Shown: positions 1-59,406 of the stretch, piece by piece
Layout of the letters: every line of letters begins with the position of its first letter
Numbering within the stretch: the stretch's first letter is position 1
DNA from: Pelagibacterales bacterium SAG-MED50
Lineage (GTDB): Bacteria; Pseudomonadota; Alphaproteobacteria; Pelagibacterales; Pelagibacteraceae
Assembly (NCBI GenBank): GCA_014653385.1
Contig: JACWER010000004.1
Span: 1-64,000, forward strand
Direction of reading: 5' to 3'
DNA: 64,000 nt
Program-made: the position numbers and the translations under genes
The notes under the pieces: model-generated
Databases searched by the model: none
What the model was told of the DNA's origin: nothing
Seen by the model: the letters and a program-made list of their open reading frames with translations, nothing else

Positions 1-68
1 AAAAATTTTATAAATTTCATTAATGAGTATTAAATTTAAAAATCTTAATAAAACAATTATTAAATGTA
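1..68. repeat. Inverted repeat arm A, exact reverse complement of 9319-9386
   Basis: Every base from 1 to 68 equals the reverse complement of 9386 down to 9319; the match breaks at 69. It contains, on the plus strand, a copy of the first codons of the uracil-DNA glycosylase gene (ATG at 23). The match is already running at base 1, so the repeat may extend left of the window. Immediately after it the reading frame of a truncated dehydrogenase opens. The simplest reading is a chimeric join at a contig end (amplification or assembly), not a natural repeat; that is inference. Confidence 0.9.
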
Positions 69-69
69 A

Positions 70-912
70 AAGTTTTTTGATGTTTCTACAGATGTAATTA
101 AAATTGCAAAACAGTCTGGGTTAAATGTAATCAATTCGATGGAAGAATTACTCGAAGGAGCAACTACAGTAATTTCTATGTTACCAGAAGGTAAACATGT
201 TCGTTCGCTTTATTTAGGAGATAATGGAATATTAAAAAGCATTCCAAAAAATTGTTTAATAATTGACTGTTCAACTATTGATATTGAAACATCTTTAGCT
301 CTTGGCAGTGAAGCAAAAAAAAATGGAATTAATATGATTGATGCTCCTGTTACAGGTGGAGTGATGGGTGCAAGAGTTGGAAAATTAAATTTTTTAGTTG
401 GAGGAACTGATGAAGCAGTAGCTTTAGCTAAACCACTGTTTGATATAATGGGACAAAAAATTCTGCATGCTGGTGCACAAGGGAGTGGAGTGGGTGTAAA
501 AATTTGTAACAATATGTCTTTAGGAATTTCAATGATAGCATCTGCCGAAGCTTTAATGTTAGCTCAAAGATTAAAAATGGATGTAAAAAAAGTTCACTCT
601 ATTATTAAAGAGGCATCAGGAAATAATTGGGCTATGACTAATTATACACCATTGCCAAACCTTACTGAAGGTGTTCCGTCAAATAATAAATATCGACCAG
701 GTTTTACAGCTGCTATGATGAAAAAAGATTTAAATTTAGCAAGAGATGCTGCAAAATCTGTAGATGCATCCACACCACTTGGTAAAGCTGCCTTAGATAT
801 TTTTTCTAAGTTTTGTGAAGACGGTGATAGTGAGACAGATTATTCCGGTATTTCTAAGATGATTGGTGGAGATGCTTGGGATTATCCATTTGATCCAAAA
901 GGTAAAGATTAA
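70..912 (+). CDS. 3-hydroxyisobutyrate dehydrogenase-like protein, 5'-truncated
   Basis: This is an NAD(P)-dependent beta-hydroxyacid dehydrogenase, probably 3-hydroxyisobutyrate dehydrogenase (valine catabolism) or a close relative. The frame is open from base 70, directly after the inverted repeat, and a TAA lies in frame at 67-69. The first internal ATG is at 139, but residues encoded before it (KFFDVSTDVIKIAKQSG) fit the end of the Rossmann first half, so about 30 N-terminal residues including the GxGxxG dinucleotide loop are missing. Counting from the ATG at 139, the substrate-binding signature DAPVTGG is at 68-74 and the catalytic lysine lies in GVGVKICNN (K121). The C-terminal helical domain is complete. 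The truncation is probably artificial, because it coincides with the chimeric junction. The exact substrate cannot be told from sequence. Confidence 0.85.
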   Translation, partial: KFFDVSTDVIKIAKQSGLNVINSMEELLEGATTVISMLPEGKHVRSLYLGDNGILKSIPKNCLIIDCSTIDIETSLALGSEAKKNGINMIDAPVTGGVMGARVGKLNFLVGGTDEAVALAKPLFDIMGQKILHAGAQGSGVGVKICNNMSLGISMIASAEALMLAQRLKMDVKKVHSIIKEASGNNWAMTNYTPLPNLTEGVPSNNKYRPGFTAAMMKKDLNLARDAAKSVDASTPLGKAALDIFSKFCEDGDSETDYSGISKMIGGDAWDYPFDPKGKD

Positions 913-1076
913 ACCAAAATTAAATTAAAATAGTATTAAAACAATACTATATCTAGTAATTACATTTCTAGTTGTAAAAATAAAAAAATATAGAATAAAA
1001 AGTTTTACTTTTGTGCAAATTTAAGGTTTATTTCATTTCTTATTAAGACTTAATAAATAAACGAGAGGGAAATATA

Positions 1077-2165
1077 ATGAAAAAAATCACTTCAATGATT
1101 TTAGCTTTAGTATTTGCAGTATCTCTAATTGGATCTGCTTCTGCTAAAACATTAAAAATCCAACTTACTTTTCCAAAAACTTCTTACGATGGACAAATCG
1201 TTAAGATGTGGACTGATAGAGTAACAAAATTAACTCGAGGTGAGTTAAAATTTGAACTTTTATCAAAAGGTGAAGTTGTTGGTATGAAAGAAACTTTAGA
1301 AGCTGTTGACAAAGGTCTTGTTGATGGTGGTGCTGCTTGGACTCACTACTGGTCTAACTATCACCCAGCTGCAATGTTATTTGGTTCGCCAGTTGCAGGT
1401 GGTGGTATTGGTTTAAGTACTAAATCATGGTTAGCTTGGTATTTTGATAACGGTGGTAAAGCTCTTTACGACAGAATGTGGGACGAAATGGGTATGAATG
1501 TTAAAGGTTTCGTTATGGCATCATCTGGTCCAGAGGCTTTAGGTTGGTTTAAAGAGCCGATCAACAGTATGGCTGATTTCAGAAAATACAGATTCAGAAC
1601 TCCTCCGGGAATTCCTGGACAAACTTACAAAGACATTGGTGTTGCATCAGTTTCTATGTCAGGTGGTGATATATTACCAGCACTTGAAAAAGGAACAATC
1701 GATGCTGCAGAATGGTGTTGTCCAAAACCTGACTCTGTTTTCGGTTTTCAAAAAGTTCTTAAAAACTACTACTTACAAGGTTTACACCAAAACGTTGTAA
1801 ATGGTGATATCTACATAAACGGTGACGTTTATAATTCTCTAACTGATCATCAAAAATATGCTATGGAAATTGCTTCTGAAGCTATGATCACTAGAAATAT
1901 CACTAACAGAGCAGTTGAAAATGGAAAAGCACTAATTGATTTAACAGAAAATCATGGTGTAATTCTTCATGATACTCCAGCTGATTACTTCACTGAGTAC
2001 ATGAATGCAGCTCAAGCTACACTTAAAAAGAATGCAGCAGAGAACGCTTTCTTTAAAGAAGTATATGAGCACATGACTGCACATGCAAAAATCGTAGTAC
2101 CTTTTATCGCTCAAATGGAAACATCTGATGCATCAATTGGAACTGCTTTTGCAAGTCAACAGTAA
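1077..2165 (+). CDS. dctP: TRAP transporter substrate-binding protein (DctP family, TakP-like)
   Basis: This is the periplasmic solute receptor of a tripartite ATP-independent transporter. Residues 1-23 form a Sec signal peptide ending ASA before K24. The conserved arginine region RFRTPPGIPG (172-181) and the EW pair in DAAEWCC (212-213) resemble receptors of the TakP / mannitol-chloroaromatic group, which bind 2-oxo acids or similar carboxylates, so an organic acid ligand is likely but not proven. Length (362 residues) is normal. A purine-rich GAGAGGGA ribosome site lies 6-13 bases before the ATG. The two permease genes follow after a terminator hairpin, so the receptor is probably made in excess over the membrane subunits. 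Confidence 0.9.
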   Translation: MKKITSMILALVFAVSLIGSASAKTLKIQLTFPKTSYDGQIVKMWTDRVTKLTRGELKFELLSKGEVVGMKETLEAVDKGLVDGGAAWTHYWSNYHPAAMLFGSPVAGGGIGLSTKSWLAWYFDNGGKALYDRMWDEMGMNVKGFVMASSGPEALGWFKEPINSMADFRKYRFRTPPGIPGQTYKDIGVASVSMSGGDILPALEKGTIDAAEWCCPKPDSVFGFQKVLKNYYLQGLHQNVVNGDIYINGDVYNSLTDHQKYAMEIASEAMITRNITNRAVENGKALIDLTENHGVILHDTPADYFTEYMNAAQATLKKNAAENAFFKEVYEHMTAHAKIVVPFIAQMETSDASIGTAFASQQ

Positions 2166-2177
2166 GTTATAAATTAT

Positions 2178-2208
2178 AAAAACGGGGATTTTAATAATCC
2201 CCGTTTTT
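2178..2208 (+). terminator. Intrinsic terminator / attenuator between dctP and dctQ
   Basis: A perfect stem pairs 2181-2190 with 2196-2205 (AACGGGGATT with its complement) around a 5-base loop, extended by A-T pairs at 2178-2180 and 2206-2208, and followed by a T run to 2211. It is a GC-rich hairpin in an otherwise AT-rich spacer, 12 bases after the dctP stop. Because dctQ-dctM follow on the same strand with no strong promoter that I can see, partial read-through is the likely way the permeases are expressed. Confidence 0.85.
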
Positions 2209-2253
2209 TTTAAGATCAATTCAATTAAAAATTAAAAGTCTAGTTTATTTAGA

Positions 2254-2910
2254 ATGGTAGAAAAAAAATCAGAACCTAATGTAAAAGAAAATCTAGACAT
2301 CACTGATGAACTGATAGCTGAGCGAAGAACAAGTCTTAAAATGCCTAAGGATATGACTCCTTGGATGGCTAAAACAATAGAATTTATAGATGCAAAAATG
2401 CTTATTACTGGCAAAATAATTTGCTGGATTACTGTACCACTTATTTTTGCAATGGTTTATGAAGTAATAGGCAGACATTTTTTTAACAGACCAACTCTTT
2501 GGTCTTTTGATATAAGCAGAATGTTAGCTGGAGCATTATTTATGCTTGGAGCCGCTTATACATTATCTAAAGGTATACATATTAGAGCCGATTTTTTATA
2601 TCGAAATTGGAGTGTTAAAAATCAAGCTAAAGTAGACTTGTTTTTATATTTATTATTTTTCTTCCCAGGCTTTTTAATCTTTTTCTTGGTTAGTTTTGAT
2701 TACGCATATACATCAATTTGTGGAAGATCAGACCTAATGGAATGTTTAGGTGGAAAAGTTAGAATTCAAAGGGCAATGGATACAACATGGATGCCAATTA
2801 TGTGGCCTCTTAAAAGCTGTATGCCGATTGGTGCTTTTTTACTTTTGATTCAAGGATTTTCAGAAGTTTTAAAAAGTTATTATGCTTTTGTTAAAGGAAG
2901 GTGGCCATAA
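2254..2910 (+). CDS. dctQ: TRAP transporter small permease (DctQ)
   Basis: Small membrane subunit of the TRAP transporter. The 218-residue protein has a charged cytoplasmic N-terminal stretch of about 45 residues, longer than many DctQ proteins, then four predicted membrane segments (about 50-70, 88-107, 128-148 and 178-200). The segment after the first helix (EVIGRHFFNRPTLWSFDISR) carries the family pattern around an Arg/Trp-rich loop. It lies between the receptor and the large permease and its TAA overlaps the dctM ATG by one base, so the two permeases are translationally coupled. Specificity comes from the receptor. Confidence 0.88.
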   Translation: MVEKKSEPNVKENLDITDELIAERRTSLKMPKDMTPWMAKTIEFIDAKMLITGKIICWITVPLIFAMVYEVIGRHFFNRPTLWSFDISRMLAGALFMLGAAYTLSKGIHIRADFLYRNWSVKNQAKVDLFLYLLFFFPGFLIFFLVSFDYAYTSICGRSDLMECLGGKVRIQRAMDTTWMPIMWPLKSCMPIGAFLLLIQGFSEVLKSYYAFVKGRWP

Positions 2911-4241
2911 TGGAAATTTTTAGTCCAGAAGTCATCGGAGCAATAATGATAGGTTGCATGCTTTTTGCAATCTTTATCGGTTTTCCAATATCATTTACAT
3001 TAATTTTTTTAGGAATTGTTTTCGGTTATTGGGGTTTTGGTAAATTAGTATTTTATCTAATGACACTCCAATTTAATATGATAATGACCGAAAATACCCT
3101 GGCCGCCGTACCCCTCTTTATTTTTATGGGAATCCTTATGGAGCAAGCTGGCTTAATGGAAAGATTATTTAATGCTGTGCAATTAATGCTTTCAAAAACA
3201 AGAGGAGCTTTATTTTACGCAGTGATGTTTGTTTCAACAATTTTTGCAGCAGCAACAGGTATAGTTGGTGCATCGGTTACAATTTTAGGAATTATGGCTG
3301 GTAAGACAATGATAAGATCAGGATATGATACAAGACTTTCTGCAGGGTTAATTTGTGCTGGGGGAACTTTAGGAATTTTAATTCCACCAAGTATCATGTT
3401 AGTTGTAATGGGACCAGTTTTAGAAATTCCAGTTACAGATTTATTCGCTGCAGCAATTATGCCAGGAATTATGTTAGCATGCTTATATGCTGGCTACACA
3501 ACATTAAGATGTTATTTAAATCCTAAACTTGGCCCAGTATTACCAGTAAGTGAGAGACCAAAGAACATGGGTAAAGTTTGGTATGAATTTATAATGGGAT
3601 TAGTACCACCTGCAGCTTTAGTATTTTTTGCACTCGGAAGTATTTTGTTTGGTTTAGCAACTCCTACAGAAGGAGCTGGTATGGGAGCTTTTGGATCTAT
3701 TATTCTTGCATTAGCTTATAAAAAATTTACCCTACAAGGTTTAAAAGATGCTCTAATTAAAACTTTAGAAATTACAGCTTTAATTATGTTTTTAGTTGCT
3801 GCATCAAATTTCTTTGGAGCAGTTTTTTCAAAATTAGGTACTCCTTCATTACTTACTGATTATTTATTAGGGTTAGAAATAAATAAATATTGGATTTTAG
3901 CTATTATGATGGCTGTAATTTTCTTATTAGGTTGGCCTTTAGAATGGGTTCCAATTGTATTAATAGTGCTACCTATTCTATTACCATTAGTTCAAGAACT
4001 TGGATTTAATTTAACTTGGTTTGCAATTTTAGTTGCTGTTAACCTCCAGACCGCATGGCTCTCACCACCTGTAGCTTTATCTGCTTATTTTTTAAAAGGT
4101 GTAGTTCCAGAATGGGATTTAAAAGATATTTACCTAGGAATGATGCAGTTTATGGTAATTCAAGTGATAGGTTTAGTATTAATAATTGCATTCCCTCAAA
4201 TAGCTTTATGGCTACCTGAGGTAATGTATCCATCACCTTAA
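2910..4241 (+). CDS. dctM: TRAP transporter large permease (DctM)
   Basis: The Na+/H+-coupled channel subunit of the TRAP transporter, about 12 membrane helices, 443 residues from the ATG at 2910. A GTG nine bases upstream is also in frame, but the ATG overlaps the dctQ stop (ATAATG) and has GGAAGG about 8 bases ahead, so I prefer it. Typical DctM features are seen: the PLFIFMGILMEQAG stretch near residues 65-80, the glycine/alanine-rich hairpin GIVGASVTILGIM, GILIPPSIM, and the second-half counterpart LQTAWLSPPV. It converges on the next gene with four bases between stop codons. Confidence 0.92.
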   Translation: MEIFSPEVIGAIMIGCMLFAIFIGFPISFTLIFLGIVFGYWGFGKLVFYLMTLQFNMIMTENTLAAVPLFIFMGILMEQAGLMERLFNAVQLMLSKTRGALFYAVMFVSTIFAAATGIVGASVTILGIMAGKTMIRSGYDTRLSAGLICAGGTLGILIPPSIMLVVMGPVLEIPVTDLFAAAIMPGIMLACLYAGYTTLRCYLNPKLGPVLPVSERPKNMGKVWYEFIMGLVPPAALVFFALGSILFGLATPTEGAGMGAFGSIILALAYKKFTLQGLKDALIKTLEITALIMFLVAASNFFGAVFSKLGTPSLLTDYLLGLEINKYWILAIMMAVIFLLGWPLEWVPIVLIVLPILLPLVQELGFNLTWFAILVAVNLQTAWLSPPVALSAYFLKGVVPEWDLKDIYLGMMQFMVIQVIGLVLIIAFPQIALWLPEVMYPSP

Positions 4242-4245
4242 TTTT

Positions 4246-5139
4246 TTATTTTTTGTTAATATAAGGAATAATTGTTCCTAATAATATTATACCTAGTGAT
4301 ATAAAAATTTTTAGGGTAATTTGTGCATCAATTACCAACCAAGCTGAAGTTGCTCCAATAGGTCCAGTAAGTGGATACATTAAGCTAATTCTTCCAACAG
4401 AAACTCTTCTTAATGCATAATTATAAAACAAATAAGCAGCAAAAGTGATAAAGGACAAAGTTAAAGCTGCCATTACTGAGGGTGTAAATTCAAGATGATA
4501 AGTGTAGTCAAAACTAGAGTTAGGCCAAATAATAAACAGTATTAAAAATGATAATACAAATCCTGTAAAATACTGAAAAGTATTAACTGATAATTGATTG
4601 ACTTTTGTTTGCATAAAACGTCTTCCAATAACTTCGTTAGTAGATGCACACAAAATTCCTAAAAAAATTATTAAATCACCCAAATAATTCCCAACACCTG
4701 ATTTTGATTGACTTGTAAGCAAGAGATAGGTTCCTATTACAGTAATAAATGCACCAATTATTACTTTTATTTCGATTTGTTCTTTTAAAAAAATTCTTGC
4801 AACAAATGGCTGTATAAGAGGTAAGGTGCTTATTATAGCAACTCCATTAACTGGACTTGTTAATAAAAGCCCAACATGGAAAGATAAAGTTACTAAAAAT
4901 GGGTTCAACAAGCCCATTAAAAAAGGTTTTAATCCAACTTGTTTTATTGAGATGTCTACTCTCATTATAAGACAAAAGATTACCATTAATAAAAAAGCGA
5001 TAAAAAATCTTACTGCTAACAAATCTATAATATAGAATTCTTCAAGTGCTAAAGTTACAAATGGAGGACCAGCACCAAAGCCTATTACAGCTAAGAGCAT
5101 AGCAAAATAACCACTATTTTTTTTAAAAAAATTAATCAT
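4246..5139 (-). CDS. EamA/DMT-family transporter
   Basis: A 297-residue integral membrane protein with two tandem EamA repeats, ten hydrophobic segments in all. The motif ending the first repeat (FLKEQIEIKVIIGAFITVIG, about residues 117-136) is the family hallmark. Such proteins usually export amino acids or other metabolites; the substrate here is unknown. It is convergent with dctM and divergent from the NCS1 permease, with a 67-base AT-rich spacer that must hold both promoters. There is no sign that it belongs to the TRAP operon. Confidence 0.82.
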   Translation of the reverse strand: MINFFKKNSGYFAMLLAVIGFGAGPPFVTLALEEFYIIDLLAVRFFIAFLLMVIFCLIMRVDISIKQVGLKPFLMGLLNPFLVTLSFHVGLLLTSPVNGVAIISTLPLIQPFVARIFLKEQIEIKVIIGAFITVIGTYLLLTSQSKSGVGNYLGDLIIFLGILCASTNEVIGRRFMQTKVNQLSVNTFQYFTGFVLSFLILFIIWPNSSFDYTYHLEFTPSVMAALTLSFITFAAYLFYNYALRRVSVGRISLMYPLTGPIGATSAWLVIDAQITLKIFISLGIILLGTIIPYINKK

Positions 5140-5206
5140 TTGGAATTTTTTATAAATTATTAAAAAAAAGATATTGTATCATAATTAATTAGTTTATTAT
5201 TCAATA

Positions 5207-6664
5207 ATGAATCAGCCAAAAGTTAAATATTCGCTTTCTAATTGGGATCTAGTTACAGTTAATCCTAATTATAAAAATTGGAATTGGAAAGATTTGTTTT
5301 GTTTTTGGGGTGTAAATATCCAGAGTGTTATTGCATTTTCTTTAATTGCATCACTATACATTGTGTACGACTTAAACACACTTGTAGTATTTTTTGGAAC
5401 TATTTTGGGATCTTTTCTCGTTTATCTTTTTTCTAATTTTATAGGTAAGCCGTCTCAGAAATTTGGCCTACCATTTGCTGTATTATTACGCTCTTCATTA
5501 GGATTTAGAGGAGCAAAATATTTTGGTTTACTAAGAGGTTTGGTTGGAATTTTTATGTTTGGTATTCAAACATATTTTTTATCGAAAGCTTTTGGTTATT
5601 TAATTAGAATTTTGATTTTTTCGATTGATAGTTCGTTATTAAATAACGATATTTTTTTAGTTTTTTTACTTGGTATTGATATTATTGATTGGATTTCATT
5701 TACTGTTGTTATTATTTTCCAAACTTTAATTTTTAGTGTGGGTATAAATTTAAATAAGAGATTAATTAATTATTCTGCAATTACAGTTTATGTGGGAATG
5801 ATAATATTTTTTTTAGGAATATTATTAAGTGATGTAAAACTTACATCAAAAGCATTTTCAGAATTGTTGGATTATAAAAATCTTTTTGATAAAGAAAACA
5901 TTTTTGCTTTATTGTCAGTTGCTGGATCAATTTTTGCATATTTTTCAATTATAATTATTAGTTTTGGTGATTTTTCTCGTTATGTTAAAAATGAAGATGA
6001 ACTAAAAAAAGGTAATTTTAGTTTAATTGCTAATCTGATCATCTTTTCTTTTTTCTCTGTATTTATCGTTATTGGGTCAGATGTATTTTTGAATTTAAGA
6101 TTTCTTGATTTAAGTTCAATTTTAACTAGTCCAACTGACATAATTGGCAAATTTGACAATACGTCTATTACAGTTATTGCTATTTTTTTTATTATTATTG
6201 CATCAGCATCAACTAATTTGATAGCTAATTTTATTCCTTCTCAATATTCACTTATTAATTTTATGCCCAGCTCACTAAATTTAAAAAGTGCAAGCTATGT
6301 AATTTCAATTATTGGTTTTTTTGTTGGTATTTTCTGGCTAACAATATTAAGCCAAATTGGTATTTTATCATTTGTTGACACTTTAATTTCCTTCTTTAGC
6401 CCAATATTTGGGGTAATGATTGCCGATTATTATTTGATTAAATCAGAGTCTATTAGCAATAAAGATATTTATTCAACAGATGCAGATAGTATTTATTATT
6501 TTTCAAAAGGATGGCATATAAAAGGTTGTTACTCAATATTAGTAGGTTTTATTTTTTCTGCTTCTACAATTTGGAATCCTAATTTAATGTTTTTACAATC
6601 CTTTGCCTGGATAATAGGTGCATTTATCTCTTTCTTAACTTATTATCTTTTAGCTAAAAAATAA
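5207..6664 (+). CDS. NCS1-family nucleobase:cation symporter
   Basis: A 485-residue permease with about 12 membrane helices. The N-terminal NWDLVTVNPNYKNWNWKDLFCFW followed by a helix and then FGLPFAVLLRSSLGFRGAK (about residues 85-103) is characteristic of the NCS1 (purine/cytosine/uracil/allantoin/thiamine) permeases. Codon and base composition match the neighbours. A short-chain dehydrogenase starts 5 bases after its stop, so the two are probably co-transcribed; import of a compound followed by its oxidation or reduction is a reasonable guess. The actual substrate cannot be deduced. Confidence 0.85.
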   Translation: MNQPKVKYSLSNWDLVTVNPNYKNWNWKDLFCFWGVNIQSVIAFSLIASLYIVYDLNTLVVFFGTILGSFLVYLFSNFIGKPSQKFGLPFAVLLRSSLGFRGAKYFGLLRGLVGIFMFGIQTYFLSKAFGYLIRILIFSIDSSLLNNDIFLVFLLGIDIIDWISFTVVIIFQTLIFSVGINLNKRLINYSAITVYVGMIIFFLGILLSDVKLTSKAFSELLDYKNLFDKENIFALLSVAGSIFAYFSIIIISFGDFSRYVKNEDELKKGNFSLIANLIIFSFFSVFIVIGSDVFLNLRFLDLSSILTSPTDIIGKFDNTSITVIAIFFIIIASASTNLIANFIPSQYSLINFMPSSLNLKSASYVISIIGFFVGIFWLTILSQIGILSFVDTLISFFSPIFGVMIADYYLIKSESISNKDIYSTDADSIYYFSKGWHIKGCYSILVGFIFSASTIWNPNLMFLQSFAWIIGAFISFLTYYLLAKK

Positions 6665-6669
6665 TTTTA

Positions 6670-7416
6670 ATGAACAAATTTGATTTTAATAACAGAACAG
6701 CTGTAATTACTGGTGGAGGACAAGGTTTTGGTCTTGATATTGCAAAAAGATTTTTAAATTCTGGAGCAAAAGTTATTATATGGGATATAGATGAGGAGTT
6801 GCTTCAATCGGCAGTTAAAGAAGTTAATCATTCAAATCTAAGTTATAATGTTATTGATGTTTCAAATTACTCACAAATAGAAAAAACTGTTTCAGAAATA
6901 ACATCTCAAAATAAAATTGATATTTTAATAAATAATGCTGGAATTACAGGACCTACAGCACCATTATGGGAATATGATATTGAGATGTGGAATAAAATTG
7001 TACAAATTAATTTAGTTGGTACTTTTAATTGTTGTAGGGCAATAGTTCCAAACATGATTGAAAATAATTATGGTCGAATAGTAAATGTAGCTTCTGTTGC
7101 AGGTAAAGATGGTAATGCTAATGCAAGTGCTTACAGCTCCGGTAAAGCTGGAGCCATAGGGCTTACAAAATCACTTGGTAAAGAATTAGCTGACAAAAAT
7201 ATAGCTGTAAATGCTGTAACACCAGCAGGTGCAAAAACTAGAATTTTAGATCAAATGAGTAAAGAACATGTTCAGAGAATGCTCTCAAAAGTTCCAAGAG
7301 GAAGATTTTTAGAGATATATGAATTTACATCTTTAATTTGCTGGCTTTCATCAGAAGAGAACACTTTTTCAACAGCTGCTATTTTTGATATAAGTGGTGG
7401 TAGATCTACTTATTAA
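6670..7416 (+). CDS. Short-chain dehydrogenase/reductase (SDR)
   Basis: A classical SDR of 248 residues. The cofactor loop TGGGQGFG is at 14-21, NNAG at 88-91, and the catalytic set is S142, Y155 and K159 (YSSGK). Acidic D39 after the second strand (IIWDID) favours NAD(H) over NADP(H). The C-terminal FDISGG motif is present. It resembles 3-oxoacyl-ACP-reductase/sugar-alcohol-type dehydrogenases, but neighbourhood (an NCS1 permease 5 bases upstream) argues for a catabolic rather than a fatty acid synthesis role. The substrate is unknown. Confidence 0.87.
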   Translation: MNKFDFNNRTAVITGGGQGFGLDIAKRFLNSGAKVIIWDIDEELLQSAVKEVNHSNLSYNVIDVSNYSQIEKTVSEITSQNKIDILINNAGITGPTAPLWEYDIEMWNKIVQINLVGTFNCCRAIVPNMIENNYGRIVNVASVAGKDGNANASAYSSGKAGAIGLTKSLGKELADKNIAVNAVTPAGAKTRILDQMSKEHVQRMLSKVPRGRFLEIYEFTSLICWLSSEENTFSTAAIFDISGGRSTY

Positions 7417-7422
7417 CTGAAT

Positions 7423-8073
7423 ATGAAAGTTGTAGCCAAGTTATTAATCATAATCTTAATTATATCAGGCCCAAGTTTTGCTGATAAAGTAAATATTTTT
7501 GAATTTACTGAGATAGAACTTTCAGAATTAGAAGTTAGAAAAGTGAGAGGGGCAGACAAAAAAACTGAGTATTCAGTCGGTTCTAACGATAATGGAAACT
7601 ATCTAAAAGCTGTGGCTGATAATGCTGCATCAGGATTAGGTAAAAAAGTAAATATTGATTTAAATAAAACACCAATAATCAACATTACTTGGAAAGTGGA
7701 AAAAGATTTAGAAGGCATAAAAGAAAATACTAAAAAAGGACATGATTTTGCAGCAAGAGTTTTTGCAATAAAAAAAACTGGAGCGACACCCTTATCAAAT
7801 AGAGCAATTAACTATGTATTTTCTAGCAATAATAAAGTTGGAGAAAATTTTCCAAGTCCTTATACAAAAAAATCAATAGATAATGTTTTGGCTACAACCC
7901 AAAAAAATTTAAATGAATGGGTTACGGTAAAAGCTAATGTTAAAGAAGATTTTAAAAGATTTCATAATTTGGATGTAGATCAACTAGATGGATTAGCAAT
8001 TATGTCAGATACAGATAATTCAAAGATGAAAGCAATAACTTATTATCAAAATATTTATTTTTCAGCAGATTAA
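7423..8073 (+). CDS. DUF3047-family exported protein
   Basis: A 216-residue protein with a signal peptide (about 1-20, ending SFA before D21) and the pattern of the DUF3047 family: an ITWKVEK strand near 86-92, DFAARVFAI near 108-116, a RAINYVFSS segment near 127-135, and W/D-rich C-terminal strands. The fold is probably a periplasmic beta-sandwich; no catalytic role is known to me. It starts 6 bases after the SDR and likely belongs to the same transcript. Its stop codon abuts that of a small opposite-strand gene. Confidence 0.75.
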   Translation: MKVVAKLLIIILIISGPSFADKVNIFEFTEIELSELEVRKVRGADKKTEYSVGSNDNGNYLKAVADNAASGLGKKVNIDLNKTPIINITWKVEKDLEGIKENTKKGHDFAARVFAIKKTGATPLSNRAINYVFSSNNKVGENFPSPYTKKSIDNVLATTQKNLNEWVTVKANVKEDFKRFHNLDVDQLDGLAIMSDTDNSKMKAITYYQNIYFSAD

Positions 8074-8214
8074 TTAAAATTTTAACCATTTCTTTAGCCC
8101 GATACTTAAAAAAGATAAAAGAATTGCAACAATTACATCTGCAATTGGAGAAGCGTTTGGAAAACCAAAGTTCCACAAGATAACTCCAATTAACCAAATG
8201 ATATATATTTTCAT
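8074..8214 (-). CDS. Small membrane protein, 46 aa
   Basis: An ATG at 8214 opens a frame of 46 residues ending at 8074. The product has one long hydrophobic stretch, WLIGVILWNFGFPNASPIAD then VIVAILLSFLSIG, that could be two short helices joined by a Pro/Asn turn, and a basic C-terminus KKWLKF. AAGGA sits directly before the ATG. Its stop abuts the stop of the DUF3047 gene, which fits a real convergent gene. I do not know its function. A different frame on the same strand is also open here, but it has none of these features. Confidence 0.6.
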   Translation of the reverse strand: MKIYIIWLIGVILWNFGFPNASPIADVIVAILLSFLSIGLKKWLKF

Positions 8215-8271
8215 TCCTTAATTATATCTTAGTTTGTATTAAAATATTATTTTTTTTGGTACAATATTTTC

Positions 8272-8694
8272 ATGCATGAAAATTTTTTTCACAATGTAAA
8301 AGTTTATTATGAAGATACTGATGCTGGTGGTGTTGTCTATTATGCTAATTATCTTAAATATTTGGAAAGAGCTAGAACGGAGGCTTTATCAACTATCGGA
8401 TTAAGTAATCTTCAAATAAAAGATAAATTTGGTGCACAGATCATAGTTAAGTCATGCAATATAGAATATAAAAAATCTGCACAGTTAGAAGATGAATTAC
8501 AAATTAAATCTTTTATAAAATCAGTTACCAAAACTTCTTTTTATATGAACCAAATTATAACTAATGATGAAACTACAATTACTGAAGCTCAAGTTCATTT
8601 AGTTTTTGTTAATGAAAAAGGAAAACCAGTCAAAGTTCCAGTTATAATTTTTGATAATTTTAAGCCCTATTTTTGTGATAGTATCAAATTGTAG
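8272..8694 (+). CDS. ybgC: YbgC-type acyl-CoA thioesterase
   Basis: A hot-dog-fold thioesterase of 140 residues. The motif YEDTDAGGVVYYANYLKYLE (about 13-32) with its conserved aspartate and the following ERARTE is typical of the YbgC/4-hydroxybenzoyl-CoA thioesterase group, which hydrolyses short-chain acyl-CoA or acyl-ACP in the cytoplasm. In many proteobacteria ybgC leads the tol-pal operon; no tol gene is adjacent here. The 3' end overlaps the convergent uracil-DNA glycosylase gene by 11 bases. Confidence 0.9.
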   Translation: MHENFFHNVKVYYEDTDAGGVVYYANYLKYLERARTEALSTIGLSNLQIKDKFGAQIIVKSCNIEYKKSAQLEDELQIKSFIKSVTKTSFYMNQIITNDETTITEAQVHLVFVNEKGKPVKVPVIIFDNFKPYFCDSIKL

Positions 8695-9364
8695 ATAATT
8701 TTTTTGCCTTCTTAAATAAATCAATCATCATTTTTTGAGATACTAATTTTGTATTTACATTTCGAGGACTTGGGTGATAGGAGGGCATTAAAATTACATT
8801 ATCTGGTAAAATATAAGTTTTACCATGTTTAAAATGAAATTTTTTATCTAGATTATATTTTTTTTTATAAAATTTTAGACAATTATCAAAAGCAACTTTC
8901 CCCAATGTAATGATGATTTTTAATTTCTTTAAATTAAAAATTTCAAGATCAAAATATTTAGAACAATTATTCAGCTCTTTATTAAGAGGCTTATCTCCTG
9001 GTGGAACACATTTTAAAATATTAGTAATATAAGTAGACTTAAGCTTTAGACCATCATTTAAATTCTCAGAAGTTGATTGATTAGAAATTTTTGCATTATA
9101 TAAGCATTTGAATAAAAATTCTGATGATTTATCACCTGTAAAAGCCCTTCCGGTTCGGGTTCCACCATGAGCAGCTGGCGCAAGACCTAATATTAAAAGT
9201 TTAGCACTAGTGTCTCCAAACCCAGTTACTGGTTTTCCCCAATAAACTTCATTAATATATTTTTTTCTTTTTTCAGTAGTAATTTTTTTTATAAACTTCA
9301 CTAACCTTGGACATTTTCTACATTTAATAATTGTTTTATTAAGATTTTTAAATTTAATACTCAT
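8684..9364 (-). CDS. Family 5 uracil-DNA glycosylase (UDGb-type)
   Basis: Removes uracil and possibly other deaminated bases from DNA. The 226-residue protein has four cysteines placed as for a 4Fe-4S cluster (C15, C18, C119, C134), motif A GLAPAAHGGTRTGRAFTGD (60-78), and the second motif MPSYHPSPRN (193-202). The alanine/histidine pattern GLAPAAHG and the absence of the family 4 GEAPG(E/Q)xE motif point to family 5. Its ATG is only two bases from the ATG of the divergent histidine phosphatase gene, so its promoter must lie inside that gene. The 5' end is duplicated in inverted form at 1-68. Confidence 0.9.
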   Translation of the reverse strand: MSIKFKNLNKTIIKCRKCPRLVKFIKKITTEKRKKYINEVYWGKPVTGFGDTSAKLLILGLAPAAHGGTRTGRAFTGDKSSEFLFKCLYNAKISNQSTSENLNDGLKLKSTYITNILKCVPPGDKPLNKELNNCSKYFDLEIFNLKKLKIIITLGKVAFDNCLKFYKKKYNLDKKFHFKHGKTYILPDNVILMPSYHPSPRNVNTKLVSQKMMIDLFKKAKKLSTI

Positions 9365-9386
9365 TAATGAAATTTATAAAATTTTT
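9319..9386. repeat. Inverted repeat arm B, source of the copy at 1-68
   Basis: This 68-base stretch covers the first 46 bases of the glycosylase gene, the 2-base divergent gap, and the first 20 bases of the phosphatase gene. Both genes are intact around it, so this is the native location and the copy at the window start is the displaced one. Confidence 0.88.
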
Positions 9387-9924
9387 ATTAATAATATTTA
9401 TAACTATTAATTCACCAATTAAAGCAGATTCAAATCAGAATTTGATTAATGAACTCAAACAAGGGGGAAAATTAATTTTTATTAGACATGCTTATGCCCC
9501 TGGTGGAGGTGATCCTAATAATTTTGATATTAATGACTGTAACACCCAACGTAATTTGAGCGATTCTGGTAGAGAGCAAGCAAATAAAATTGGCTCTTTT
9601 TTTAAGGTTAACAATATCTTGATTGATAAAATATATTCAAGTGAATGGTGTAGATGTAAAGAAACATCATTAATTGCTTTTAATAAGTTTGAAAATAAAA
9701 GTTTTTTAAATTCATTTTTTAGTTCAAAATTTGCTCAAAATAAAGATCCGCAGATTAAGAAATTAAAAAGATTTATTAATAATTGGGATGGAAAAAAAAA
9801 CTTAGTATTCGTTACTCATTATGTGGTTATTTCTGAAATATTAAATTATGGATCTTCATCAGGTGAGATAGTTATTTCAGATAAAGATTTAAAAGTTATT
9901 GATACTTTTGAAATTGAATATTAA
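9367..9924 (+). CDS. Periplasmic histidine phosphatase-family protein
   Basis: A 185-residue protein with a signal peptide (hydrophobic 5-17, ending KA before D21) and a phosphoglycerate mutase-like domain. The phospho-acceptor motif is FIRHAYAPGGG with R40 and H41; R96 in SSEWCRCKET and H151 in VTHYVV complete the usual phosphate pocket. The family removes phosphate from small phosphorylated compounds; export suggests phosphate scavenging, which is inference. The start is separated by two bases from the start of the divergent glycosylase gene, so there is no space for a conventional leader. Confidence 0.82.
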   Translation: MKFIKFLLIIFITINSPIKADSNQNLINELKQGGKLIFIRHAYAPGGGDPNNFDINDCNTQRNLSDSGREQANKIGSFFKVNNILIDKIYSSEWCRCKETSLIAFNKFENKSFLNSFFSSKFAQNKDPQIKKLKRFINNWDGKKNLVFVTHYVVISEILNYGSSSGEIVISDKDLKVIDTFEIEY

Positions 9925-9935
9925 AATAAACTATT

Positions 9936-10061
9936 ATGTCTTCCAAAAAAGCAATGAAGCAAGCGCAAAAACAATCTTACGCTAAACACAGAAGTAATAT
10001 TTCTTATAATAAATTTAGTTTTAAAAAAAAAGAATTACCTAAGACAAAAAAAAATAAATAG
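9936..10061 (+). CDS. Small lysine-rich protein, 41 aa, hypothetical
   Basis: An ATG at 9936, 11 bases after the phosphatase stop, opens a 41-residue frame ending TAG at 10059-10061. The product starts MSSKKAMKQAQKQSYAKH and ends in a KKKELPKTKKNK tail: highly basic, no hydrophobic stretch, no cysteines. It could bind nucleic acid or be a ribosome-associated small protein. I do not recognise a family. In an A-rich genome a short lysine-rich frame can arise by chance, so confidence is moderate. Confidence 0.45.
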   Translation: MSSKKAMKQAQKQSYAKHRSNISYNKFSFKKKELPKTKKNK

Positions 10062-10066
10062 TATAT

Positions 10067-10240
10067 CTATCGTTTTTGTTTTTTATCTATATAAAAAAGA
10101 GCAATTAAAAAAATAATTGTCCATACAAACACTGACATAGTTTTTAAGAAAGTTGTTTCTGCTCCCCAAACATCAAAAAAAAGTGCTCCAATTATAATTC
10201 CAACGATATAAATAATTGTTAATAAAGTTAATTTATTCAT
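10067..10240 (-). CDS. Small two-helix membrane protein, 57 aa
   Basis: The frame runs from ATG at 10240 to TAG at 10067. It encodes two hydrophobic segments (about residues 5-23 and 36-52) joined by a short loop DVWGAETTFLK, and ends in a basic KKQKR tail, a credible inner-membrane hairpin with cytoplasmic C-terminus. It starts 9 bases after the stop of the DUF1289 gene on the same strand, so it is probably its operon partner. I do not recognise a named family. Confidence 0.65.
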   Translation of the reverse strand: MNKLTLLTIIYIVGIIIGALFFDVWGAETTFLKTMSVFVWTIIFLIALFYIDKKQKR

Positions 10241-10249
10241 TATAATAAT

Positions 10250-10501
10250 TTAATCTTTAATAAGATTTTTTTTAAAAAGAGACATTCCATTATTGATTTT
10301 ATGCTCATATGACTCATTAAAGCTTTCTAATTGCCATCCATTAAGTCTTTTTTTTATTTCTTCTAAATTATTTGTTTTCCATTCGTTAGTAGTAGTTTCA
10401 ATTTTCCACGTCTTTTTTTCTTCATTGGTTCGTCCACATCCATAGCAATATCCTGTTGATGGGTCAGTTTTACAGATACTAATACATGGTGAAATTATCA
10501 T
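10250..10501 (-). CDS. DUF1289-family small cysteine protein
   Basis: An 83-residue protein with the DUF1289 signature SPCISICKTDPSTGYCYGCG at residues 4-23, containing four cysteines (C6, C10, C19, C22) that probably bind a metal or Fe-S cluster, followed by RTNEE and a tryptophan-rich helical part. The family is widespread in proteobacteria and I know no firm function for it. It leads a two-gene unit with the 57-residue membrane protein. Confidence 0.85.
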   Translation of the reverse strand: MIISPCISICKTDPSTGYCYGCGRTNEEKKTWKIETTTNEWKTNNLEEIKKRLNGWQLESFNESYEHKINNGMSLFKKNLIKD

Positions 10502-10559
10502 AATTTTAAAATTAATATAAATTACAACAGATAAATAGTTATTTTTTCATCAATTGTCA

Positions 10560-10588
10560 TTGGACAAACAGTTTCAATAATATATAAA
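10560..10588 (+). promoter_or_regulatory. Sigma-70-type promoter for tRNA-Leu and tig
   Basis: TTGGAC at 10560-10565, a 17-base spacer, and TATAAA at 10583-10588 match the -35/-10 consensus closely. Transcription would begin near 10595, about 8 bases before the tRNA. No other good promoter is seen before tig, so tRNA and tig may share it. Confidence 0.65.
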
Positions 10589-10602
10589 ACCACCTAATTT
10601 GT

Positions 10603-10687
10603 GGGGCGATGGCGGAATTGGTAGACGCGTTGGTCTTAGGAACCAATATTTTCGGATGTGAAGGTTCGAGTCCTTTTCGCCCTACCA
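10603..10687 (+). tRNA. tRNA-Leu (anticodon UAG)
   Basis: An 85-base class II tRNA with CCA encoded. Acceptor GGGGCGA pairs with TCGCCCT (first pair G-U), the D arm reads GCGGAATTGGTAGACGC, the anticodon loop is CTTAGGA (UAG), a short variable arm follows, and the T arm contains GGTTCGAGTCC. It sits 11 bases before the tig ATG. Confidence 0.95.
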
Positions 10688-10698
10688 TTTAAATTATT

Positions 10699-12150
10699 AT
10701 GAAAGTAACAATAGAAAACATAAAAGGTCTTAATAAAGACATTAAAGTTTTTATAGATAAAGACACTATGAACTCTCATATGGATGAAAAGTATGAGGAA
10801 ATTAAAGGTACTGTTAATTTAAAAGGATTTCGTCCAGGAAAAGTACCAAAAGAAGTTTTAAAAAGACAATTTGGGAAAGCATTATTTGGTGAAGTTTTAG
10901 ATAAAGTTTTAAAAGATACATCAACCAAAGCACTTGAAGAAAATAAGATTAAACCCGCAGGACAACCAAAGCTTGATCTAAAGATTTATGGTGAAGATAA
11001 GGAATTAGAGTATGTGCTGTCTGTCACTGAACTTCCTAAAGTTGAAACCAGGTCTTTAGAGAATATAAAATTTGATCAATATTCTGTTAAAATTGATGCT
11101 AGTGAAACTGATAAAAGAATTAAAGAAATTGCAAAAAATCAACCAAGTTTTAAAGACGCATCACCTGAAACCAAAGCTAAAGAAGGCGATCTAGTAGTAT
11201 TAGATTATCAAGCAACAGTTGATGGTAAAGAGTTTAAAGGTAGTGAAGGTAAAAATACTCAATTAACACTTGGTAAAGATTTATTTTTAAAAGGTTTTGA
11301 TAAACAGTTAATAGGTGTCAAAAAAGATGAAGAAAAAACAGTTGATGCTACTTTACCAGAAAATTTTCCTGAAAAGGAATTGGTAAATAAAAAAGCTAAA
11401 TTTGTATGTAAAATTATAAATGTTAAAAATCCTGAGGATGTAAAAATTGATGATACTTTTGCAAAAAATTTAGGTGCTAAAGATTTAAATGATCTTAAAA
11501 CTTTAATATCAAAACAGATCAATGATGAATATAAAAATTCATTAGATCAATTATCTAAAACTCAAATATTAAAAGAAATTGAAAAAATTAAAATAGATGA
11601 AATTCCTGAAAATTTAATTGAAGAAGAAGTTAAAATTCTTTCACAAGGTATGGATGAACAGGAAGCTAAAAAAAATAAAGCTAAATTTACTGAGACTGCA
11701 AAAACTAGAATTAAAACTGGATTAATATTAAACGAGTTTGGTGAAAAAAATAAAATCCAAGTAACTGAACAGGAAATTCAAGCCGAAGTTCAAAAGCAAT
11801 TAAGAATGATGCCTGGACAGGAAAAAATGGTAATGGATTTTTATCAAAAGAACCCTTCAGCTGTAGCTAGTTTAAGAGGAACTGTTTATGAAGAAAAAAT
11901 TTTAAATTTGATTAAAGAAAAAGCCAAACCAAATAAAAAAGAAATTTCAAAAGATGAAGCTGAAAAGATTTTAAAAGAAGCTCATAATCATGACCACAAT
12001 CATGACCACAACCATGATCATGATCATGATAAAAAAGATAAAAAAAAAGATACAAAGAAAAAAGCTGAAGCTAAATCTGAAAAGAAAAAAAAACCTACAC
12101 CAAAAGCTTCTAAATCTAAGTCTGTAACAAAAAAAGTTAGCAAAAAGTAA
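10699..12150 (+). CDS. tig: Trigger factor, ribosome-associated chaperone, with His/Lys-rich tail
   Basis: Folds nascent chains at the ribosome exit. The N-terminal ribosome-binding signature GFRPGKVP is at about 44-51, the FKBP-type PPIase domain spans roughly 150-245 ([17 protein letters not shown] at its start), and the C-terminal arms follow to about 410. Length is 483, some 40-50 longer than usual: residues 429-444 are an alternating His/Asn/Asp run ([16 protein letters not shown]) and 445-483 are mostly lysine with Ala, Ser and Pro. The tail could bind metal ions or nucleic acid; that is inference. The gene starts 11 bases after tRNA-Leu and heads the tig-clpP-clpX-lon order seen in many bacteria. 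Confidence 0.95.
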
Positions 12151-12182
12151 TCTCAAGTTGTATAAGTAATACGAATCAACTT

Positions 12183-12794
12183 ATGACAACAAAATTATCT
12201 GAGCATATGAATACTTTAGTTCCAATGGTAGTGGAACAATCTAACAAAGGCGAAAGAGCCTACGATATTTATTCTAGGCTTTTAAAAGAAAGAATAATTT
12301 TTTTAACTGGCCAGATAAATGATAATGTTGCGTCACTAGTTACAGCTCAATTATTATTTTTAGAAGCAGAAGATCCTAAAAAAGAAATTTATTTATACAT
12401 AAACAGCCCTGGTGGACTTGTTACTGCTGGTCTTGGAATTTATGACACTATGCAATATGTAAAACCAGATATTTCAACATTATGTATTGGTCAAGCAGCT
12501 TCAATGGGATCATTTCTACTTGCAGCTGGAACAAAAGGTAAAAGGTTTTCACTTCCAAACTCAAGAGTTATGGTTCATCAACCTTCAGCAGGTTTTCAGG
12601 GTCAAGTAACAGACATTGAAATTCACGCTAATGAAGTCTCATCTCTAAAAAAAAGATTAAATGAAATTTATTCTAAGCATACAGGTAAATCTGTTGATGA
12701 AGTTAAGTCTGCTTTAGAAAGAGATAACTTTATGACAGCAGAAGTTGCTAAAGACTTTGGCTTGATAGACGAAGTAGTAGATAAAAGATCTTAA
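12183..12794 (+). CDS. clpP: ATP-dependent Clp protease proteolytic subunit
   Basis: The 203-residue serine peptidase of the ClpXP complex. Catalytic Ser107 lies in GQAASMGS and His132 in [14 protein letters not shown] (74-79) forms the oxyanion strand. Length is standard. It lies between tig and clpX, its usual partner genes, with 32 bases before it and 92 bases after it. The spacer before clpX contains a short inverted repeat (806-811 with 820-825 of the 12000s) and a possible -10 sequence, so clpX may have its own start of transcription. Confidence 0.97.
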
Positions 12795-17605: not shown

Positions 17606-17625
17606 AACTCATGTATTTTGATTTT

Positions 17626-17701
17626 GGGTGGTTAGCTCAGTTGGTAGAGCATCTCGTTTACACCGAGGGGGTCAAAGGTTCGAGTCCTTTACTACCCACC
17701 A
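17626..17701 (+). tRNA. tRNA-Val (anticodon UAC)
   Basis: A 76-base tRNA with CCA encoded. Acceptor GGGTGGT pairs with ACTACCC, D arm starts TAGCTCAGTTGG, the anticodon loop is TTTACAC (UAC) on a TCTCG/CGAGG stem, and the T arm is AGGTTCGAGTCCT. It is followed 14 bases later by tRNA-Asp, likely on one transcript. Confidence 0.96.
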
Positions 17702-17715
17702 AAATAACAAAAAGT

Positions 17716-17792
17716 GGGGGTGTAGCTCAGTTGGTTAGAGCGATCGCCTGTCACGCGATAGGTCGAGGGTTCGAGTCCCTTCACTCCCGCCA
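17716..17792 (+). tRNA. tRNA-Asp (anticodon GUC)
   Basis: A 77-base tRNA with CCA encoded. Acceptor GGGGGTG pairs with CACTCCC, discriminator G, anticodon loop CTGTCAC (GUC) on an ATCGC/GCGAT stem, T arm GGGTTCGAGTCCC. It lies 87 bases before nuoA. Confidence 0.96.
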
Positions 17793-45318: not shown

Positions 45319-46479
45319 ATGAAAAAAAAAATTGCAATACTTGGTTCAACAGGTTCAATTGGTAAAACATTAATTGAATTAATTAAAAAAGATAAAAATA
45401 ATTTCAAAATAGTCCTTCTTACTGCAGATAGAAATTATAAAGAAATCCTTAACCAAGCAAAAATTTTTAAAGTAAGAAACATAATAATAACCAATAAAAA
45501 TTCTTATCTAATTTTAAAAAAAAAAAAAATAAAAAATATCAAGATCTTTAATAATTTTAGTTCACTTAATAAAATTTTTAATAAAAAAATTGATTATGTT
45601 ATGAGCTCTATATCAGGTGTTTATGGTTTAGAACCAACAATTAATATTATCAAATATACAAAAAAAATAGCTATTGCTAACAAGGAAGCAATTATATGTG
45701 GCTGGCATCTTATTCAAAAAGAAATTAAAAAATTTGATACTTTATTTATACCTGTAGACTCAGAACATTTTTCGATCTTTTATTCCTTACGTGGTAATAA
45801 TATTTCAAATATACAAAAGATATATTTAACTGCGTCTGGAGGTCCATTAAATAATTTTCCTAAAAATAAATTTAAGTCAATCAAAATTTCTGAAGCAATT
45901 AATCATCCTAATTGGAAAATGGGAAAAAAAATATCTGTAGATTCAGCTACTATGATGAATAAGGTTTTTGAAATTATTGAGGCAAAAAAAATATTTAATT
46001 TAAAATATGAAACATTGGATATTTTAGTACATCCCTCATCATATATCCATGCAATTGCCAAATATAATGATGGTATAATTGATATTATTGCTCACGATAC
46101 AAACATGAAAATTCCTATATTTAATTCATTATATAATAATGAAAATAAGTTAATTAAGACTGATAATTTAAATATAAAAAAATTAAATTTTTTAAATTTT
46201 AAAAAGGTTGATATGAATAAGTTTCCATCAATTAAAATTATAAAATTGCTAAAAAATAAAGATTCGTTGTTAGAAACTTTAATTGTTTTAGCTAATGACG
46301 AGTTAGTAAATCTTTTTTTATTAAAAAAAATTAATTTTACTGATATAACTGTTATTCTTCTAAATTTAATTAAAATGAAAGAATTTAAAAAATATAATAA
46401 AAAGAAACCAGGTAATATTAAGTCAATATTCGAATTAAATAATTATATTCGAAAAAAAATTAATGATTTAATTTTATAA
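45319..46479 (+). CDS. dxr: 1-deoxy-D-xylulose 5-phosphate reductoisomerase
   Basis: Second step of the non-mevalonate isoprenoid pathway, supplying UppS among others. NADPH loop GSTGSIG is at 9-15; ANKEAII (about 118-124), PVDSEHFSIFYSL (about 145-157) and the C-terminal SVDSATMMNK region carry the metal and substrate ligands. 386 residues. Downstream, rseP is usually found before bamA, but here bamA begins five bases after the dxr stop. Confidence 0.95.
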   Translation: MKKKIAILGSTGSIGKTLIELIKKDKNNFKIVLLTADRNYKEILNQAKIFKVRNIIITNKNSYLILKKKKIKNIKIFNNFSSLNKIFNKKIDYVMSSISGVYGLEPTINIIKYTKKIAIANKEAIICGWHLIQKEIKKFDTLFIPVDSEHFSIFYSLRGNNISNIQKIYLTASGGPLNNFPKNKFKSIKISEAINHPNWKMGKKISVDSATMMNKVFEIIEAKKIFNLKYETLDILVHPSSYIHAIAKYNDGIIDIIAHDTNMKIPIFNSLYNNENKLIKTDNLNIKKLNFLNFKKVDMNKFPSIKIIKLLKNKDSLLETLIVLANDELVNLFLLKKINFTDITVILLNLIKMKEFKKYNKKKPGNIKSIFELNNYIRKKINDLIL

Positions 46480-55599: not shown

Positions 55600-56391
55600 C
55601 TACAAAACTGAGAAAATAGAATTTTCTGATAAATTTTTTAAAAGTGATTCACCAATTAAAAAAGTTTTTATAGAAGTTTTATTCTTCAAATCCAAAAGTT
55701 CATCTTTTGTTTTAATTCCACTCTCAGAAATTAAAGGTCCCTGATGATTTAAAAGCACATTATGAATATCGTAGGTTGTATTAATATCAGTTTTAAGTGT
55801 TTTTAAGTTTCTATTGTTAATTCCAATTATAGCTTCTTTAAAATTCAAAGCTTTTTTCGCTTCTTCTACAGTATGCACTTCAACGATAACTGACATGTTA
55901 AATTTTAATGCTTCTTCATATAATTCATTAGCTAAATCATCTGATACTCCCGCCAGAATAATTAAAATAGCATCAGCACCATAACTCTTTGCTAAAGGTA
56001 TTTGAAATTTATCAATAAAAAAATCTTTACACAAAATTGGTAAATTAAATTTTTGTTTAATTTTACTGATATGAATTAAATTTCCTAAAAAAAAATCTTC
56101 CTCAGTAAGTACTGATAAGCAAGTTACATTATTTTCGTTATAAATTTTTGCAATTTCAACAGGATTATAATCTTCTATAATTACTCCCGCTGAAGGACTT
56201 GCTTTTTTAATTTCAGCTATAATTGAGATTTTATCTTGAATTATATTATTTTGAATTTTTTCTTTAAAATTAGTAAAATTTCTATTTTTATCAATAATTT
56301 CATTTAAAGAATCTAAACTTATGGATTTCTTTAGAGCATCGACTCTTTCAATTTTTTTTGTGATAATATTATTTAATATATTCTCAGACAT
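55600..56391 (-). CDS. trpC: Indole-3-glycerol phosphate synthase
   Basis: Tryptophan synthesis, closing the indole ring. A TIM barrel of 263 residues; IIAEIKKASPSAGVI (about 57-71) holds E60 and K62, then CLSVLTEEDFF, LCKDFFID, and GINNRNLKT near 195. Stop 89 bases before lexA. Overlaps trpD by 8 bases. Confidence 0.95.
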   Translation of the reverse strand: MSENILNNIITKKIERVDALKKSISLDSLNEIIDKNRNFTNFKEKIQNNIIQDKISIIAEIKKASPSAGVIIEDYNPVEIAKIYNENNVTCLSVLTEEDFFLGNLIHISKIKQKFNLPILCKDFFIDKFQIPLAKSYGADAILIILAGVSDDLANELYEEALKFNMSVIVEVHTVEEAKKALNFKEAIIGINNRNLKTLKTDINTTYDIHNVLLNHQGPLISESGIKTKDELLDLKNKTSIKTFLIGESLLKNLSENSIFSVL

Positions 56392-57946: not shown

Positions 57947-59406
57947 TATCTCAATGCACTAATTAAAGCTTTAGCTTTGTTTACTGTTTCTTCATATTCT
58001 TTTATTGGTTTGCTGTCTGCAACTATCCCAGCACCAGCTTGAACATAAAATTTTTTATTTTTTGCAACAGCTGTTCTTAAAGCAATACAAGTATCAAATT
58101 CTCCGTTTGCTGAAAAATATCCAATACCTCCGGCATATACTTTTCTTCTTGTTATTTCTAATTCATCAATAATTTCCATAGCTCTTATTTTAGGAGCTCC
58201 AGATACTGTGCCAGCTGGAAAGCCTGCCAATAATGATTTAAATTTTGAGAACTTTTTATTATATTCTCCTATTACATTAGAAACTATATGCATGACATGT
58301 GAATATCTCTCAATAATAAAACTCTCAGTGACTTTAACAGAATTGATTTTAGAAACTTTACCCGCATCATTTCTACCTAGATCTAAAAGCATTAAATGTT
58401 CTGACAATTCTTTTTTATCTTTTAATAAATCTTTTTCGTAACAAAGATCTTCTTTTTTTGTTTTTCCTCTTGGCCTTGTTCCAGCTATTGGTCTTACAGT
58501 TATCTTGTTATCTCTTAATCTTACTAGTATTTCAGGACTAGCCCCAACTATTTGAAAATCGTTAAAATTGAAGAAAAACATGAAAGGAGAGGGGTTTGTA
58601 ACCCTTAATTTTTTATAAATCTCAAGAGGGTTTTTTGTAAGTTTTGCTTCAAACCTTTGGCTCAAAACTACTTGAAAAATATCACCTAATTTAATGTATT
58701 TTTTTGCTTTGTTAACCATATTAAGAAATTTGTATTTAGGTGTATTGGACTTAACTTTAATTTCTTTAAGAGCATTACTTTTAGATTTGTTTAAATTTTT
58801 TAAAGAAGATTGAATTGTAAGTTTGAAAAGTTCAGAATTTATATCATCAAATTTCTTTTGATAATTCGTAATTTTTTCATCATTAAATATATTAATTATA
58901 TAAAATATTTCTTTTTTTAAATTATCATGAATTACAAGAGTTCTAGGTCTTAGCAATCTAACGTCTGGTAAATTAAGATCATTTTTACATTTATTAGGGA
59001 TTTTTTCGATATATCTAATGGAATCGTATGAGAAATATCCCGAGATTAAAGAACAAATCTTTGGTAATTCTTTAGGAGTTTCAAATTTAAACTCCTCAAT
59101 TATCTTTTCTATTAATTTTTCAGGCTTATCTTTTAACTTAATTTTTTTTTTGTTTTTAGTTAGATAAGAATTTTTGTTATTAAATTCCCAAATTTTATCA
59201 GGATTTTTGCCAAAAATAGTATATCTTCCTTTTATCTTCCCTTTTTCAACAGACTCAAAAATAAAGCTATTTTTTTCAATTAAAAAATTATCAATTAAAT
59301 TAATTACTTCATCATCATTTTTGACTTTTTTAGAAGTATAGATAATTTGATTTTTTTTGCTTCTATGTCGAAACTTAAAATCCTTGAAGTTTCGATTGAT
59401 TATCAT
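57946..59406 (-). CDS. trpE: Anthranilate synthase component I
   Basis: Converts chorismate to anthranilate. 486 residues. The N-terminal tryptophan feedback region has the LLES-like FIFESVEKGKIKGRYTIFG (about 48-66); the chorismate domain shows PSPFMFFF, PIAGTRPRG, LGRNDAGKV and the C-terminal AGAGIVADSKP. Its ATG overlaps the stop of ppiD by 3 bases, so trp genes are probably read through from ppiD. I see no leader peptide with tandem Trp codons at trpE. Confidence 0.95.
   Translation of the reverse strand: MIINRNFKDFKFRHRSKKNQIIYTSKKVKNDDEVINLIDNFLIEKNSFIFESVEKGKIKGRYTIFGKNPDKIWEFNNKNSYLTKNKKKIKLKDKPEKLIEKIIEEFKFETPKELPKICSLISGYFSYDSIRYIEKIPNKCKNDLNLPDVRLLRPRTLVIHDNLKKEIFYIINIFNDEKITNYQKKFDDINSELFKLTIQSSLKNLNKSKSNALKEIKVKSNTPKYKFLNMVNKAKKYIKLGDIFQVVLSQRFEAKLTKNPLEIYKKLRVTNPSPFMFFFNFNDFQIVGASPEILVRLRDNKITVRPIAGTRPRGKTKKEDLCYEKDLLKDKKELSEHLMLLDLGRNDAGKVSKINSVKVTESFIIERYSHVMHIVSNVIGEYNKKFSKFKSLLAGFPAGTVSGAPKIRAMEIIDELEITRRKVYAGGIGYFSANGEFDTCIALRTAVAKNKKFYVQAGAGIVADSKPIKEYEETVNKAKALISALR

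Follow-up and report, generated by a model that had tools for sequence, protein, structure and literature searches.

The window analysed here, a 64,000-nucleotide stretch of a Pelagibacterales genome, starts at base 1 of a contig of 88,027 bases (C34). This is one of the 54 contigs (1,257,069 bases, completeness 86.36%) of the assembly referred to below as G000. The left end carries, on the plus strand, a gene of the 3-hydroxyisobutyrate dehydrogenase type (69-912; Pfam PF03446 and PF14833), which lacks its N-terminus and whose listed open reading frame begins at 139. Further inside lie two intact genes with divergent starts, a uracil-DNA-glycosylase-superfamily gene on the minus strand (8684-9364) and a histidine-phosphatase-superfamily gene on the plus strand (9367-9924). 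The 68 bases that precede the dehydrogenase gene (the tip, 1-68, plus strand) are an exact inverted copy, without a mismatch, of 9319-9386 (minus strand), 9.25 kb inward. This source straddles the two divergent starts, with 9319-9364 inside the glycosylase-type gene and 9367-9386 inside the phosphatase-type gene.

The original prediction, made from the sequence of the window, had claimed an inverted match of 68 bases that stops abruptly inside a broken dehydrogenase gene, with the internal copy sitting in two intact genes, and each of these points was confirmed. When the window was compared with itself by BLASTN, the inverted match extended to 71-72 bases at 98.6% identity (E = 3e-29), which is far above chance, and the remaining repeat pairs listed had E = 3e-4. 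Past the tip, 13 of 20 positions were identical in the block containing the join, and at most 9 of 20 beyond it. A search of G000 with window 1-2200 as query located the tip sequence in two places only, 1-68 and 9319-9386, although a copy in the 25 of 54 contigs that read as N could have escaped this search. Elsewhere, the window contains a short repeat of about 40-55 bases (45493-45545, 56233-56286 and 59138-59178), the second and third copies of which are inverted relative to the first at 82-87% identity, and a direct repeat of about 80 bases in two adjacent copies at 17625-17792 (78% identity).

The same locus was intact in a relative. The genome G024 (AG-390-D18) was colinear with window 62-8688 (93.8% identity) and 8699-12532 (89.9%), and it passed straight through the position of the join. 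There, the 3-hydroxyisobutyrate dehydrogenase gene was complete (308 amino acids counted from the first ATG; PF03446 and PF14833), and the gene ahead of it encodes an aldehyde dehydrogenase (506 amino acids, PF00171). The sequence around the internal source also aligned with G024, whose copy of 9319-9386 stands in the same context as in the window. We extended the comparison to other SAR11 loci, taking the best 80 of 114 and dropping four non-SAR11 ones. The N-terminal dinucleotide-binding motif of the dehydrogenase was kept in 75 of the resulting 76; the single exception (L105) belongs to a contig that stops before the N-terminus. Since G024 and 75 of the 76 loci keep this N-terminus, the gene in the window has been truncated by the join. 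The join itself (68/69) was absent from G024 and from all 75 SAR11 loci that have the gene start (from the best 80 of 114), and the exact 68-base tip had no match in a search of the contigs of other genomes, a search that may leave out near records. Because the contig of L105 ends nearby, a natural breakpoint shared among genomes was also considered; it was rejected, as no inverted tip was present in the 2.5-4.4 kb covered for each of nine loci at contig ends.

In order to look for the true left neighbour of the dehydrogenase gene, we used as query 5,836 bases of G024 comprising the start of this gene and the sequence to its left. In G000 this query matched window 62-138 and, beyond that, only eight weak, scattered fragments, none longer than 111 bases. 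The search of the assembly thus revealed no left neighbour, although the 25 contigs reading as N could hide it; its absence is what would be expected, given that the genome is incomplete.

We then asked how often such tips occur in G000. Both ends of all 54 contigs were taken (108 ends, in stretches of up to 15 kb), and 25 small contigs, which are mostly or wholly N, were dropped with their 50 ends, leaving 58 readable ends. An end was counted when at least its last 20 bases were copied exactly and in inverted orientation within the same end stretch. Terminal inverted copies were present at eight of the 58 ends, with exact lengths of 24-108 bases and sources 0.9-9.4 kb inward, and terminal direct copies at none of the 58. 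Four of them were left ends: C2 (24 bases, copy ending at 2,676), C5 (41 bases, ending at 2,272, and continuing to base 49 after one mismatch), C53 (37 bases, ending at 3,236) and C34, the tip of the window (68 bases, ending at 9,386). The other four were right ends: C8 (62 bases, ending at 2,307), C10 (42 bases, ending at 8,611), C12 (33 bases, ending at 7,172, and reaching base 90 past a length difference of one base) and C23 (108 bases, ending at 905). A scan of each end with words of 20 bases, at offsets of 0-58, returned the identical eight ends and no more. Partners at greater distances or on different contigs were sought among the retrieved end stretches. There, the ends of two further small contigs found matches: bases 1-78 of G000:C19 (L050) matched 313-390 of G000:C23 (L142) at 98.7% identity, and bases 1-96 of G000:C15 (L046) matched 2665-2759 of G000:C4 (L035) at 99.0%, both in opposite orientation; these matches are perhaps chimeras joining more distant places.

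Interior cuts through the contigs served as controls. Within a range of 7.5-12 kb, the same kind of copy was seen at 2 inverted and 2 direct of 10,080 cuts in G000, at 0 and 0 of 5,600 cuts in the single-contig genome G012 and at 0 inverted and 1 direct of 2,520 cuts in G024. Fisher's test of 8/58 ends against 2/10,080 cuts gave p = 3e-17, which is only a guide, since neighbouring cuts are not independent. In this comparison the ends had been searched over up to 15 kb and the cuts over 7.5-12 kb. The contrast between ends and interior became stronger once the ranges were equalised. At 10 kb, inverted copies were present at 8/58 ends compared with 0/6,552 cuts in G000, 0/3,640 in G012 and 0/1,638 in G024, while at 7.5 kb the figures were 6/58 ends compared with 0/10,152, 0/5,640 and 0/2,538 cuts, respectively. 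Among relatives, none of 29 left contig ends from five genomes (nine from G024 and five each from G031, G006, G004 and G005) carried an inverted tip.

Five of the eight joins (C34, C8, C53, C10 and C5) were compared with relatives. In all five, the match of the contig body to G024 broke at the join, and the source of the tip mapped elsewhere in G024, on the opposite strand. At C34, the 7-base motif AAATGTA (62-68, plus strand) is common to the internal copy and to the dehydrogenase gene of G024, and it is likely to be the site of re-priming. A three-way comparison gave 7 exact shared bases at C34, 2 at C53 (5 if one mismatch is allowed), 7 at C5, 4 at C8 and 4 at C10, the last measured against G012; these lengths are approximate, as they were judged against diverged relatives in place of the true sequence, which is lost. 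Directly adjoining the join of the window is a run of six T (73-78, plus strand), where the alignment with G024 shows five, and the extra T shifts the reading frame of the dehydrogenase. The exact six-T string was found in none of the 76 SAR11 loci, although an exact-string test is weak in diverged relatives. Low coverage at the contig end may have led to an error here: mistakes in the consensus of poorly covered tips are a plausible cause, since the tip of C12 likewise holds a one-base length difference.

These findings indicate that the tip at 1-68 is almost certainly an artefact rather than a genuine chromosomal rearrangement. The origin that we favour, at a probability of roughly 90%, is a chimera formed during multiple displacement amplification (MDA) by phi29 polymerase and carried into the assembly, the amplification of G000 by MDA being something that we infer. 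While amplification proceeds, a 3' terminus lying free at the microhomology would re-anneal to a displaced strand close by that has the opposite polarity, and it would then be extended. The true left neighbour would be poorly amplified and so not assembled, and the assembler would run briefly into the chimeric reads before stopping. The suspicion raised in the original prediction of an amplification chimera or an assembly error is therefore supported by the intact locus of G024, the missing left neighbour, the microhomology and the seven similar ends.

Several observations speak against a chimera formed by MDA. The 29 left ends of relatives had no tips, even though their names suggest single-cell genomes. 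We take the AG-plate names of most relatives to denote such genomes; some titles say MAG, and two of the best 80 say SAG. End trimming would explain why the ends of relatives are free of tips. In addition, template switching alone does not account for the extra T at 73-78, and in the comparison of C5 with G006, unlike those with G024 and G012, the match passes the join as far as base 6, although this alignment is weaker and contains gaps. Finally, one comparison of single-cell and metagenome assemblies states, in a passage on chimeric reads, that these seemingly had no substantial impact on single-cell assembly (PMC6162917). According to the same source, chimeric reads overlap the edges of contigs more frequently than other reads do.

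An artefact that arose without MDA, either as a chimera of library preparation or as a purely computational misjoin, is unlikely, but it is the alternative that survives best. In its favour, the amplification of G000 is deduced rather than proven, and the tips are short (24-108 bases exact, and about 90 in C12 with its one-base length difference). A computational misjoin, however, would in our judgement have no evident reason to be always inverted, to draw on partners less than 10 kb away and to share 2-7 bases. Far less probable is the edge of a real, cell-specific and longer inverted duplication that extends to the left of position 1 and breaks the 3-hydroxyisobutyrate dehydrogenase gene, which the original prediction had held open. 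The intact internal copy is what a duplication requires, but genuine duplications would not be concentrated at the ends of contigs (8/58 ends compared with 0/6,552 interior cuts at an equal range of 10 kb), this one would disrupt a gene of which 75 of 76 SAR11 loci (from the best 80 of 114) retain the start, and it would leave the other seven tipped ends unexplained. As no relative examined carries the join, this part of the original prediction found no support here. Least credible of all is a real inversion in the chromosome of the cell with one breakpoint at 68/9319: real rearrangements may also show microhomology, but the source at 9319-9386 still stands in its normal, uninterrupted context, which is not what a simple inversion would leave behind if nothing were duplicated, the inversion is seen in none of the relatives examined and a separate event would be needed for each of the seven other contig ends.

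With the tips read as artefacts, about one in seven readable contig ends of G000 (8/58) carries a short false inverted tip. Such tips can truncate genes or pass for terminal inverted repeats or rearrangements. Cutting 100-200 bases off the contig ends would clear the tips seen in G000, and in one single-cell study, which did not concern the relatives compared here, 200 bases were trimmed from each contig end (PMC6142677). A standard for single-cell genomes describes MDA as giving rise to both chimeric molecules and biased coverage (PMC6436528).

An inverted chimera of the MDA type is an already known kind of artefact, not a real feature of a genome. In the data given by Lasken and Stockwell (2007) for MDA of a single E. 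coli cell, 406 of 475 chimeras were inverted, the partners lay less than 10 kb apart in 337 of these 406, and at least 2 and up to 21 complementary bases were present at 76.8% of the joins; the explanation offered there is that displaced 3' ends prime on nearby displaced strands (PMC1855051). The tips of G000 agree with this description. All eight terminal copies were inverted and none was direct, the distance was 9.25 kb at C34 and 0.9-9.4 kb over the eight, and the complementarity of 7 bases at C34 and of 2, 4, 4 and 7 at four other joins falls within the range of 2-21. The join of the window is, moreover, absent from independent genomes of the group (G024 and 75 of 76 SAR11 loci). The chimeras of that study were observed in individual 454 reads from amplified E. 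coli DNA, whereas the tips of G000 are assembled ends of SAR11 contigs. Both are inverted, have partners less than 10 kb apart, share a short sequence at the join and occur several times per genome (PMC1855051).
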